This document shows positions 51,378-57,243 of a stretch of DNA of 64,000 bases, in pieces. This DNA comes from Filobasidium wieringae (Eukaryota; Basidiomycota; Tremellomycetes; Filobasidiales; Filobasidiaceae): NCBI GenBank assembly GCA_001600055.1, contig BCIV01000012.1, positions 620,474 through 684,473 of the forward strand, in the 5' to 3' direction. Both the position numbers and the translations under genes were made by a program. Each line of letters begins with the position of its first letter. The first letter of the stretch is position 1. A model generated the notes under the pieces. The model saw only the letters and a program-made list of their open reading frames with translations. It had not been told where the DNA came from and searched no databases.

Positions 51378-53977
51378 TCATAGCGTCAGTTTCCGTAATG
51401 CGGTCGGATCCAGCCACTCTTCTTCCCTCGCAAGTCCATTCAGGGTCAGGTTCCCCTTTGTCCAATGATCGTTGCCAGCGATAAAATCACCTCTGACTAC
51501 CTTTCCTCTACCGACGACCCGCTGCCTGTCTGCATCTTCAATCTTGATGTACACCCCCTCTATCTTACTGCCACAAGCATAAGCGCTCTTGCTATCCAGC
51601 AGCAGTAACACATCTTCTTTCGTGATCGTCTCGAGTTGAGCTATGAGTGGGACTTGAGGGATCCCTGACCCCTTCAGCGCTTTCGTCAAGACCGATCGGG
51701 AGAGGAATGTCTGAGTGAGCCTATCGTACAGGTCAAAAGCGACAAAAGGTCCCGGTAGGTGGGTATAATGAATCGAATGCTTCGCGACCATCCATTCGCC
51801 ATAGAGGATATATCGTTCAGGAAAGTGTACATCTCGATCAAGAAGGTTGCGAAGAGCATCTGAATGATCTTCGATCCATCGATCTAGCGGCTTGAATTGC
51901 GAATGGACATTAGACGATACCCAATGTGAACGATTTTGACAACGGATCACGCCATCCCAATCGAGCGAGAAACCCATGTTGGCACCATCAATCTTCTCCT
52001 CGATAGTAAGCTTCCCAGTCATGGTTGGAAAATCCTCGAATACGATATCATCGTCCGTAGTCGCGCCAAGATCAAGTAAATGCGGTGTCCGCGGGAACTT
52101 CAAAAGTGGCGGATCCTTTGCGATGAGCCGCACAGCTTCTCGAGCAGCGGCAAGACTAGCGATGGTGAGGATTGAGACGAATCCTTCATCGAGAGTTGGC
52201 GGTTGCATCTGCTTATCGAACTGATCCAGCGCATTCGCCCCACGACCTGCTCGAATGGTCGGATGTCCGAACCGCAAATTGATTCGCTGTGCGCACAAAT
52301 CTTTTGGGTAATCGAAATATACCGCCACACAGGGTCTATCATTGAGTTTGAGCCAAAGCCTTCGATCGTCTTCCAGAGGATTGCATCGATCGAAAATGAC
52401 CAGCATATCGTCCCCATCTTGTCTACCAAATTCTCGCTCGCATGCCGCTCTAGACCCACTATCGTCCTGGCTGATAACGATCGTCTTGTTCCGCGGCCTT
52501 CTTTTCGAGATCGCTGCGGCCAGCCACGACTTTCCCGATCCAGGTTTTCCTATAAGGAATAATATGGAACCTTCTGGTAGCGGATATTCTCCTTCTTGCC
52601 GCAAGGTTGTACAAGGTTCTGGAATCCAGTTGTCAAGGTAGGCCGTCTTCCATCGATGAGAAACCCAAGCGGCCACGAATTGTTCCTGCTTCTCACTCTC
52701 TAAAGACCGTGTGCGAGCTTCTCGTAGTAGCTTTATTGCAGTATTCGAATCAAGTTTCGGAGTATCTCCCTCTATCCCTTCTTTCCCTAGCATAGTGATC
52801 AGGCAAGCCAGAACCGTCCCTGCCCTTCCTACTCCGCCACCGCAATGGATCAACCACATCCCTCCTTCTTTGATTTTCTCATAGATAATATCCATTTCTT
52901 GTAAAGTCGGCGCCCCATAGTTGGGGATAGGTAGGAAAACATATTTCATCCCCCACTCAAACCATATCTCTGGCAATGGGCTCTCCTCAGTGAGACTAAG
53001 GACGTGAGTAAACCCGATCTCCCTTAATAAGTCACAGTCCGCTTGGGTCCGAGGGGTAGACATTCCTGCGACACGGTCGGGATAGATCCAGGAGAAGAAT
53101 CTTGGTAATCCTTCTGAACCTAAATACAAAGCTCGGTCCCGGGAGACTGTGGGTGTCAACCAAAGGTCCGTGACTTCCAAACCCGCGGGAAAGGGGTGAA
53201 ACAAGAGTGCCTGAAATTCTTGAGGAATCGCCTCCAATTCCGTACCAGTCATCACTGGACCCCAAGAGATCAACCCGTTGAGTTTCTTCATTTTCACTGA
53301 TACCCTTGGGATCAGAGCTGGATCGAGTGCCGCAGCTCGAGCTAGAGCGAGCATTTGGACTTTTGGATCGGGATGGAACTCCGCTAGTCGTAGGTACGCT
53401 TTGAAAGATCTCGGGAACGACGTGACAAAGTGGAAGGAAAGTTCTTGTTGCTATGTTTATTTTCAGTCGTATAACAGAGGATACACCGAGGGAAGTTGCT
53501 CACCAGTGATGGATCACCCCAGCAGGCGACAGTCGCGTGGTCCATCCCATCTTCACCTGACTGCTCGGCGGTAGCTAAGAGCTGTTCCCTTGAACATGAA
53601 GCCAAGAGAGCCGGGATTCCTTTCGATATTCTATGATCATCCTCATCACTAAGAGTAATATGAAATTCCTTTCTGCCTAATCCCCTAGACTGCCGCCAAA
53701 TATCTCCATGATTCCAGACGACTACCAAGAACCTTACTGATTTGTTGGTCACTTGCCCAAGGACGTATATCCTATCGAGCGAAACATCTCTGGCATCCGT
53801 GTCGCCTATTTTCTTCAAAGCCTTGAATTCGGCTGCATTGAGAAGAGTGATGTGAAGCGGTTTGGAAGGTAGGTCGTTGATTCCAAACGACCGCACTGCC
53901 TGATCGATAGATGGGCCCAGCAGTGCAAGGCCTCCACGATATGATGTGATCTTCAAGCCCCCAGAGTTGACCTGCAT
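51378..53977 (-). CDS. Four-domain RNA repair protein: 2H phosphodiesterase, DSP phosphatase, kinase, RNA ligase
   Basis: Two exons (53977-53518 and 53398-51378) give 826 residues. Residues 1-153 form a 2H phosphoesterase with HIT at 42-44 and HIT at 106-108, the fold that opens 2',3'-cyclic phosphates. Residues about 240-400 form a dual-specificity-phosphatase domain with HCGGGVGRAGT (Cys339, Arg345). The loop expected to carry the general acid reads PIPNYGAP, with Asn313 in place of Asp. Residues about 425-580 form a polynucleotide-kinase-type P-loop domain with GKPGSGKS at 437-444 and LVIFDRCN after it. Residues about 605-826 form a nucleotidyltransferase RNA ligase: motif I EKIDGAN with Lys622, then YGEWMV, EGVYIK (767-772) and KVVRGDFI (786-793). 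The set covers end healing and sealing of broken RNA. The order differs from Trl1. The junction uses a GTGATC donor (53517) and a TCAAAG acceptor. Confidence 0.85.
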
Positions 53978-54261: not shown

Positions 54262-57243
54262 ATGACCTCAAGACTCAAGAAGAAGCTCGACCAGCTAGAG
54301 GAAGATGGGAACAATTTGAACGAATCTTTCTGCTTGGTAGGTGTCTATCCCTTTCTCTCTTGCTTTCTTGACAATGCTAAACTAAGGACGTCTCGCAATA
54401 TTTTCACAGATCGGAACTCCTCTGCCTTCTTTAGCAGACTCAAAGAGGGACAAGAACGAGTTCGTTCCCGTTTGGAAGCAGGAGGTACGGGATGAACAGG
54501 GTAGAAGACGATTCCACGGAGCGTTCACTGGAGGATTCAGTGCGGGTTACTACAACACTGTCGGTTCCAAAGAAGGTCGGTCCATCTTATATCTAGGTGA
54601 ACATCCAGCTGGAATACAACTGAATATCCGTACTCTCATCAGGATGGACCCCCTCCACTTTCGTTTCCTCTCGAAACCAGCGAGCCTCTAAAACCCAAAA
54701 TGTAGAGGATTTCATGGACGAGGAAGATCTCGAGGAACTCCGTAATAGTCGAAAATTAGAGAATACAGACACCTTCAAAGCAGATGGCTTCGGAACTGCT
54801 GCTGAGCTCGGGGCTAGGGGTGAAGATGGGTAAGCCAATTCTCGCTCTCTCCCGGTTTAACGGAACTCTCTAAGCATTGTTTTGGTACATAGATCTTTCT
54901 CTTCCGCCCTAACGTCCCTGATTCAACCGTCCACATCATCAATCGGACAGAAATTGTTGATGAAAATGGGTTGGAAACCTGGTCAAGGCATCGGACCTCG
55001 TCTCACCGCTCGACAACTGAAACTGCAAGAACGAAAGATCGGCCGAAGAGCCGCTCATGTTGGATCTTATGTACCTGAGATGGATGATGATGAGGATATT
55101 AAAGACGCCGTAGATGCTCAGGGAAAGAGGCATACCTTTGCTCCGAGAGATACGGGGTTGATGTCGTTCGATAACAAACAAGATCGAGCTGGACTCGGTT
55201 ACGTTCGAGGAGCTGGATTGAACATGCCTGTTGCTTCAGGGAGCAAATCCAATGAGACCGAAGATACTAGCACAGGGTTCGGATTAGGAGGACATGATGC
55301 GGACGAAGACGATCTTGATATCTATGCCAACGGGGCTGAACAACTCCGGTCGCTAGGAGATGGGGGAAACGGAAGAAGGACAGCTTATGATGAGCAGGAA
55401 GATGGGGATATGCAGGAAGGGGTGATTTTGCTTGGAGAAGGTGTTGTGGGACGGGACCGAGCTCGATCCAGAGCTCAAGCTCAAGACACAAGGGACAGAA
55501 CTAGACTGGAAAAGCCGGCAGGAAAAGGGGGCGATGTTTGGCATGATGGAAGACCTGTCGTACCTGGATTCACTGTAGATCTGAGGGTCGTGTCGAACGA
55601 CAAATGGTGAGCAATGGCAGGCCTCCTGCCATCTATCTGTGTCCTGATTGCTCCTTCCTCTGCCTAGGTTCAAATTTCCAGAAATGCCAGAAGGTTGGAG
55701 ACCAAGACCCGCTCGAGTCTGGAAGACGGGGATGAAACGTTGGGATCAAGCAGAGGTCTCTCGACCTGAGGAAGTGGTGGATACGAGGAAGAATCGACCG
55801 CAGATGTCTGCTGATCAGAGGGGAGAGGTACTAGGGGAAGAACAACTGAAAGGTCCGGTCAAATCGGTCTTCGATTACATGTCTGCGAAAAGCAAAGAAC
55901 GGCTCGCTCAGGTCATACCGGCTGATCGTCAACCTGGAGCTCCAGCCAGCGTCAGTGTGGAGGAAGAGAAGCCTCAGATAGATGAACCGCAAGAAGGAGT
56001 CATCGTCCCGCCTTTATCACCTCGAACGGCCTCCGCAGCTTTAAAGGGATTCATCCCGTTCGGCGACGATCCGGGCAAACAACAAAGATATACCTCTTAC
56101 TTGAGATCTCAGGTTGTCAATACAACCGAACCGAACCCCAAATTGTTTCCCAGCGGGAAGTTGGATCAGGTCAACAAGGAGTTGAGCGACTTTATGAAAT
56201 CCGCGCAGATGTTTCGGCCGATGAGCTTCGCTATGGCGAATCGGTTCACTTCTTCCAAGCTGTCTACCCAGGATATGGCCCAGCCCAAACCCGGTTTACA
56301 TGTACCTGATCCCACCAAGGTAGACGAGTGGAAAGACAAAGCGAAACTAGAGCAGGAGGTCAAGGAGGTCCTAACGCCCCGGGAAGAAGCTGCTCGAGCA
56401 GGGTTGTGGGGGAAAATGACCCGAGTCACTGCGGATTGGGCGCCGAATGCGCTAGTCTGCAAAAGGTTCGGAGTAGCCAATCCTTGGCCAGACGGTTTAC
56501 CTGGTACTGCTTCCGAGACCAAGCAGCCCGAAGGATCGGCGCCGTCAGTGGGCAGGGCTCTTGGAACTAAGCCACTACTTAGTGCACCAGGAGATGATGT
56601 CGCTTGGCAAAACAACTTTGTCCATCAAGCGAAACCAGAGGAAAGCAAGCCTGAGCTGGAAGACGGTGATGCGATACCGAGAGATCGAAAGCCTCGTACG
56701 ATAGCTGAAGTCGGAATGGCTGAAGACGAAAATCAGGGACGCGATACCTTGACCTACAAGAAGCCAGAGTTGGACATCTTCAAGGCGATCTTTGCAAGCG
56801 ATGATGAGGATGACAGCGAAGATGAGGATGAGGAACCTGTCCGAGCTGCACCATCACATTTGAACTTGCAAGATCCCACACCGATGACCGTGGAATCTTC
56901 GAACGAAGCCAAACCTACAGTACAAGGTATAACGCTTCAACCTGTAGTAAACATACCCGTAGCGCAGGACGTCGCTCGACCTATATTTGGGTTGGCCAAC
57001 AGCAAGAGCAAAACAGAAGGCGATAGCAAAAGAGCTTCCAAGAAGGACAAGAAGCGCGATCGAGTTAAAGCTAAGACGATGTTGAGCTTTGACGTTGGCG
57101 AGGATGGTGATGAGGACTTAGTAGTCGAGGATAAGAGGGATAAGAAGAGGCGGAAGAAGATCGAACCCGATACTGAAGTTGCAGCGGTCCCGATAAAGAT
57201 AGATGAAGATGATGAATGGGTGGAAGCGCCATCAGTTGTATAG
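54262..57243 (+). CDS. GPATCH1: G-patch domain protein GPATCH1
   Basis: This nuclear protein is linked to the spliceosome; its G-patch is expected to activate a DEAH helicase. The start [16 protein letters not shown] is followed, after introns, by the conserved N-terminal block [20 protein letters not shown] and [16 protein letters not shown]. That block is the DUF1604 signature of GPATCH1. The G-patch lies at about 54950-55010 with [13 protein letters not shown]. Further conserved parts are [17 protein letters not shown]-like [10 protein letters not shown] and [14 protein letters not shown] (55670). The C-terminal third is acidic with Lys-rich runs ([12 protein letters not shown]) and ends VEAPSVV. 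Confidence 0.9.

Follow-up and report, generated by a model that had tools for sequence, protein, structure and literature searches.

A four-domain Swiss Army Knife protein of Filobasidium wieringae, probably a single-chain RNA end-healing and sealing enzyme

The window analysed here, a 64,000-nucleotide stretch of the Filobasidium wieringae genome (contig BCIV01000012.1 of assembly GCA_001600055.1, positions 620,474 to 684,473), contains a minus-strand gene whose predicted product carries 2H phosphoesterase, protein tyrosine phosphatase (PTP)-type phosphatase, polynucleotide kinase and RNA ligase domains in a single chain. Judging by its sequence, the protein is not a new machine and is an ordinary member of a family that is already recognized, since Pfam names its first two domains, PF22547 (2H-SAK) and PF22784 (PTP-SAK), 'Swiss Army Knife' (SAK) domains. 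The founding description of the family is probably that of Burroughs and Aravind in 2016. The protein is probably an enzyme for RNA end healing and sealing, acting alongside the tRNA ligase Trl1 and not in its place.

Domain architecture and catalytic residues

The 848-residue protein matches 20 Pfam families at E <= 1, and domain calls among these were judged by the curated cut-offs. The 2H-SAK domain covers residues 17-115 (window positions 53633..53929; all features of the gene are on the minus strand) at 5.8e-14, with 52.9 bits against a cut-off of 27, and includes HIT motifs at residues 42-44 and 106-108. PTP-SAK, a PTP/dual specificity-type phosphatase domain, occupies residues 274-417 (52674..53105; 4.9e-45, 153.7 bits against a cut-off of 27). 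The kinase and ligase lie C-terminal of these in the same chain. AAA_33 has its best stretch at residues 455-489 (8.8e-8, 33 bits), within a kinase domain of approximately residues 453-588 (52161..52568), and RNA_ligase matches residues 639-799 (2.9e-30, 106.1 bits), within a nucleotidyltransferase domain of approximately residues 606-848 (51381..52109). Both exceed their curated cut-offs. The original prediction, made by inspection of motifs, had proposed these four activities in this order; domain matches and catalytic residues bear it out, including the kinase and ligase, on whose detection by profile search it had been staked. Its interpretation is supported in part.

The expected catalytic residues, with the roles known for the four families, are intact in all four domains. 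In the phosphatase P-loop HCGGGVGRAG (residues 360-369; 52818..52847), H360, C361, G362, G364, G366, R367 and G369 are identical in 121/121 aligned rows. The same is true of K465 in the kinase P-loop GKPGSGKS (residues 459-466; 52527..52550), and of the E, K, D, G and N of ligase motif I, EKIDGAN (residues 643-649; 51978..51998). Residue 365 of the phosphatase loop (52830-52832) is more variable: it is valine in 35 of 164 rows, including the Filobasidium protein, and lysine in 127. The lysine form resembles PTEN-type loops and may bear on substrate choice.

Sequence comparison places DUSP23/VHZ and archaeal PTPs as the nearest solved relatives of the phosphatase, and the kinase resembles two solved fungal kinases (from Rhizopus and Lichtheimia). 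Searches of PDB sequences gave no match to the ligase part alone (E <= 1) or to exon 1 alone (E <= 5); a search with the ligase profile gave a single match, 3qwu, at 0.022.

Distribution of the family

Homologues were taken as the best 120 of 233 from a first search and the best 120 of 456 from a search begun with an ascomycete member, which together comprise 163 different proteins. Of the matches listed, a protein of Cryptococcus sp. DSM 104549 stands closest among those that are full-length and have a named source (61% identity over 99%); a metagenome protein of 658 residues reaches 94% identity over 76%. Most of the named sources among the 163 are Basidiomycota, and a small number are Ascomycota (Myriangium, Bisporella, Elsinoe and Pseudogymnoascus). 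The non-fungal sources are bdelloid rotifers (Rotaria and Adineta) and one moss, Ceratodon purpureus, whose gene lies on a contig of 16 Mb. The moss protein and three rotifer proteins (P0127, P0148, P0155 and P0157) have all four domains above cut-off, with identical residues at each catalytic site that was compared.

All four families were matched in 53/53 members chosen from the first homologue list. At source, SAK homologues are often annotated as 'ATP dependent DNA ligase' or 'dual specificity phosphatase'. A search of one literature collection for the SAK domain names and accessions gave one match, which concerns an unrelated protein, and no biochemical study of a SAK-type protein was found by titles and abstract starts among the matches listed.

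Repeated alteration of the 2H site

Fourteen sites, catalytic in the four families, were compared across 164 rows (the 163 proteins and the Filobasidium protein): four in the 2H domain, two in the phosphatase, three in the kinase and five in the ligase, with threonine and serine scored alike at the 2H residues. Letters are present at all 14 sites in 131 rows. The phosphatase, kinase and ligase residues are unchanged in every one of these, and the complete 2H site is kept in 117, including the Filobasidium protein. In the other 14 (P0082, P0087, P0095, P0099, P0103, P0107, P0114, P0116, P0118, P0122, P0146, P0150, P0153 and P0161) one or more of the four 2H residues are altered. The changes are substitutions in motifs that align well; FHITLS becomes FHILLS, for example, and YHITLL becomes YYMTLL. 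Seven of the 14 come from the genera Mycena (five), Favolaschia and Roridomyces, of which the last two belong to Mycenaceae; other Mycena members retain the site. When the 2H part was left out of the tree, at least 11 changes of state were needed to account for the distribution. Outside the 131 rows there is a single change at the ten non-2H sites (P0031, E789 to S), and D731, which is not among the 14, differs in 2/164 rows.

Some of the 2H changes may be gene-model or sequencing errors, but such errors should not concentrate in one domain. Because the 2H site is the only one ever altered among the 131 members, the 2H step looks replaceable, in that it can apparently be lost with the rest retained. 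Its place could be taken by another phosphodiesterase, for example that of Trl1, or the RNA ends could already bear a phosphomonoester.

A family tree at odds with species relationships

An unrooted tree of the Filobasidium protein and 28 named proteins from the 163 (29 rows) conflicts with species relationships. The approximately unbiased (AU) test rejected a single clade in three cases: the four Ascomycota (p-AU 1.9e-5), five Exobasidiomycetes (7.0e-8) and moss with rotifers (7.2e-37); the moss and bdelloid proteins sit in two different parts of the tree. The rotifers form one clade (support 100/100) inside a fully supported 15-row group with Agaricomycetes and Pseudogymnoascus, where they are sister to the other 12 rows with weak support (84/68). 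A quick tree of 58 rows has the same main groups. This pattern fits horizontal transfer of SAK genes, and old duplications followed by losses may be an alternative source of it.

Coexistence with Trl1 and Tpt1

The genome searched comprises 19.76 Mb in 33 contigs, in which PF09414 is matched once; by this search the SAK gene is single-copy. The Trl1-type families RNA_lig_T4_1 (PF09511) and tRNA_lig_CPD (PF08302) are absent from the 20 Pfam families of the SAK protein and are matched elsewhere in the genome. On contig C5, matches to Trl1 ligase (69349-68039, in three pieces), kinase (67723-67230, in two pieces) and cyclic phosphodiesterase (CPD; 67172-66489) follow one another on a single strand in Trl1 order. 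A Tpt1 match above cut-off is present on contig C2, in a frame with two stops, as an intron may give. RtcB had no match in the genome; the same search matched in 9/14 control genomes.

The original prediction had suggested a repair system separate from, or replacing, the canonical tRNA splicing ligase, and had proposed a check for Trl1 and Tpt1. Since the genome also has genes for both, replacement of Trl1 in tRNA splicing by the SAK protein is unlikely, and of the two suggestions it is the separate RNA-repair role that stays likely.

Relatives of the ligase and kinase

Motif I had been read as Rnl2-type rather than Trl1-type. The SAK ligase does have the Rnl2-like nucleotidyltransferase fold and, as noted, lacks a PF09511 match, but it does not belong to the RNL2 equivalog: the homologue P0002 scores 16.4 bits against the TIGR02307 cut-off of 197.15, and exon 2 of the Filobasidium gene has no match to that model at E <= 0.01.

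Copies of the whole protein were sought in bacteria and viruses with profile A1. Of the 6 prokaryotic and 9 viral loci among the matches listed, 13 align around the kinase and 2 at the ligase, and none has the full architecture.

Bacterial relatives of the SAK ligase are sparse. A ligase profile (A2) built from 12 members, which scores 1.8e-17 in Lysinibacillus, matches 15/151 genomes in the family of Lysinibacillus, 1/199 in its phylum (the centre genome itself) and 4/296 in the phylum of Kineosporia, the centre genome being included in each count. By motif patterns, a P-loop kinase open reading frame (ORF) immediately precedes the ligase in 15/15 loci of the Lysinibacillus family, and in 13/15 the kinase ORF also contains an HD motif. 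Among the four actinobacterial loci, an HD-kinase ORF is present in one, and in another a kinase motif shares the 850-codon frame of the ligase. The latter frame (L029, 697-3249), in which a SAK-like ligase is followed by a distant P-loop kinase motif, is a possible ligase-kinase fusion.

The score of the SAK kinase profile is 5.3e-33 for a kinase on a viral contig (L017), 2.8e-16 to 1.3e-9 for the 15 family loci and approximately 4e-6 for Kineosporia. Because the viral kinase outscores the kinases of the ligase-bearing bacterial loci, the SAK kinase and ligase may have different histories. L017 (3171-5462) is a 763-residue ORF on a 167-kb viral contig, and its C-terminal kinase is the top-scoring one outside the SAK gene itself among the loci examined; the start of the ORF is metallophosphatase-like by its motif.

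Proposed mechanism and alternatives

In the scheme proposed, a 2',3'-cyclic phosphate would first be opened by the 2H domain, giving a phosphomonoester whose phosphate the PTP domain would take off to leave 2'-OH and 3'-OH; the kinase would phosphorylate the 5'-OH, and the ATP-dependent ligase would seal the break. Unlike the scar made by Trl1, the joint would retain no 2'-phosphate for Tpt1 to remove. Likely substrates would be RNAs cut by ribonucleases, ribotoxins or stress. We infer each reaction, the order of the steps, the substrate and the role; the scheme would be the simplest use of four sites.

Several points weigh against this scheme or the history suggested for it. With at least one 2H residue altered in 14/131 members, all four steps cannot proceed unaided throughout the family. 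Proteins, lipids and 5'-triphosphates are also substrates of PTP-fold phosphatases, and a role at RNA 3' ends is assumed here from the accompanying domains. The AAA_33 match in the Filobasidium protein is modest (8.8e-8). In two of the four actinobacterial loci, no kinase motif lies within the stretch examined. Finally, a single clade of the three Ascomycota without Pseudogymnoascus is not rejected (p 0.092), which weakens the case for many transfers.

The loss pattern itself lends some weight to two other readings. The 2H domain may serve mainly in a regulatory or accessory capacity, with a core of phosphatase, kinase and ligase acting on phosphomonoester breaks from oxidation, radiation or hydrolysis. 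The 11 or more changes of the 2H site beside ten unchanged sites are in keeping with this, as are the full-length members in bdelloid rotifers and moss. However, the complete 2H site is retained in 117/131 rows, that of Filobasidium among them, and the CPD of Trl1 or another 2H enzyme could substitute where it is lost; we regard this reading as unlikely. It is slightly less likely again that the PTP domain works as a phosphatase at RNA 5' ends bearing tri- or diphosphates, comparable to DUSP11 or the triphosphatases of capping enzymes, with the 2H domain alone handling 3' ends. PTP-fold RNA 5'-triphosphatases do exist, and loss of the 2H site while the phosphatase, kinase and ligase sites stay implies that the phosphatase is not simply tied to the 2H domain. 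Against this, DUSP23/VHZ and archaeal PTPs are the solved proteins closest to it, its P-loop HCGGG[KV]GRAG is unlike the HCTHGxNRTG of RNA triphosphatases, and a kinase in the same chain suits ends with a 5'-OH, not a 5'-triphosphate. DUSP11 and the capping enzymes were not among the best 50 or 60 matches in the searches for solved relatives, which excludes nothing.

A second ligase for tRNA splicing or HAC1-type mRNA splicing, redundant with Trl1, would account for the shared set of kinase, ligase and phosphodiesterase functions. We consider this improbable: the Trl1 ligase-kinase-CPD array on C5 and the Tpt1 match are present, the SAK ligase matches a different Pfam family, and a tree at odds with species relationships is unsuited to an essential splicing role. 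That the protein is an artefact, two adjacent genes read as one, is suggested by the separate open frames of exons 1 and 2, yet this is hardly credible given four-domain single-chain homologues in named fungi, moss and rotifers and the intact catalytic residues.

Gene model and neighbouring features

The gene was confirmed where the original prediction had placed it, as a two-exon minus-strand gene (51378..53977, read from 53977 to 51378). Exon 1 (53504..53977) encodes residues 1-158 and holds the 2H domain; exon 2 (51378..53450) encodes residues 159-848 and the stop. Across the gap between them, 31 GT-AG pairs leave the frame open. The 53-nt intron GTGAGC...ACATAG (53451..53503) is preferred for two reasons: its donor is typical, and six homologues aligned over the junction have the residues flanking it on both sides, with lengths that differ only slightly. 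This model gives 848 residues; the 826 reported originally are the product of an alternative pair (donor GTGATC, acceptor TCAAAG) and are not favoured. Single-chain four-domain homologues are common, for example P0002, 61% identical over 99%; they speak, indirectly, against an assignment of the exons to different transcripts, which would have refuted the original prediction.

Between the 2H and phosphatase domains is a mostly helical segment (approximately residues 121-232; 53229..53617), interrupted by the intron and unnamed in Pfam, whose limits are transferred from an AlphaFold2 model of P0002. It includes an Asp-His pair (D146, H147) that is nearly invariant among aligned members. A weak TPR-type match falls in this segment in one of ten members scanned (P0155, residues 176-218, 0.0013), and TPR_14 matches 3/53 members at positions within the protein that were not located.

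A neighbouring ORF on the plus strand (54882-55610) encodes a G-patch-like stretch; it has no visible link to RNA repair.

Significance

A eukaryotic protein able alone to rejoin RNA through a clean phosphodiester bond would open RNA repair in eukaryotes to direct tests beyond tRNA splicing. The present analysis adds three points of interest: only the 2H site has been lost, and repeatedly; the family spreads across kingdoms; and the ligase is akin to those of bacterial kinase-HD cassettes. The bdelloid members and the loss of the 2H site alone lead to concrete predictions on substrate and role. In bdelloid rotifers, horizontally acquired RNA ligases are strongly upregulated under fungal attack (PMC11258130); because SAK is not named in those passages, its link to this response is a lead only. 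A 2026 review (PMC13407396) regards the direct evidence that drying-tolerant animals have specialised RNA repair as limited.

Tentatively, SAK could be a self-contained RNA repair system that has moved between kingdoms. Its phosphatase-kinase-ligase core would be indispensable and its 2H domain repeatedly discarded, where another enzyme or the type of break supplies the 3'-phosphate. It might then serve a dedicated pathway, distinct from tRNA splicing, in stress-tolerant eukaryotes.

Comparison with known systems

With the SAK proteins defined by PF22547 and PF22784, the Filobasidium protein shares both named domains and the kinase and RNA_ligase domains behind them, and no feature was found that separates it from them. 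Fungal Trl1 likewise joins a kinase and a ligase to a cyclic phosphodiesterase of the 2H type in a single chain, but its order is ligase-kinase-CPD rather than 2H-PTP-kinase-ligase, it lacks the phosphatase, and the SAK ligase and 2H domain fall outside the Trl1 Pfam families. T4 Rnl2 and the Naegleria RNA ligase differ in that the SAK ligase, as scored for P0002, is below the RNL2 equivalog cut-off. Mammalian PNKP and bacterial Pnkp share the kinase fold and some sequence with SAK; their phosphatases, however, are of the HAD or metallophosphoesterase type, whereas that of SAK is of the PTP type.

The bacterial sets of HD-Pnk or Pnk-HD with an RNA ligase share a kinase and a ligase with a similar KYPR..HL and EKxDG signature. 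In Deinococcus radiodurans, HD-Pnk is reportedly an end-healing enzyme that abets radiation resistance, and loss of rnl is said to be linked to radiation sensitivity. These sets differ from SAK in being encoded by separate genes and in having an HD domain where SAK has 2H and PTP; no HD family is among the 20 Pfam matches of the Filobasidium protein. By analogy, the 2H and PTP domains of SAK would occupy the place of HD in the bacterial sets.
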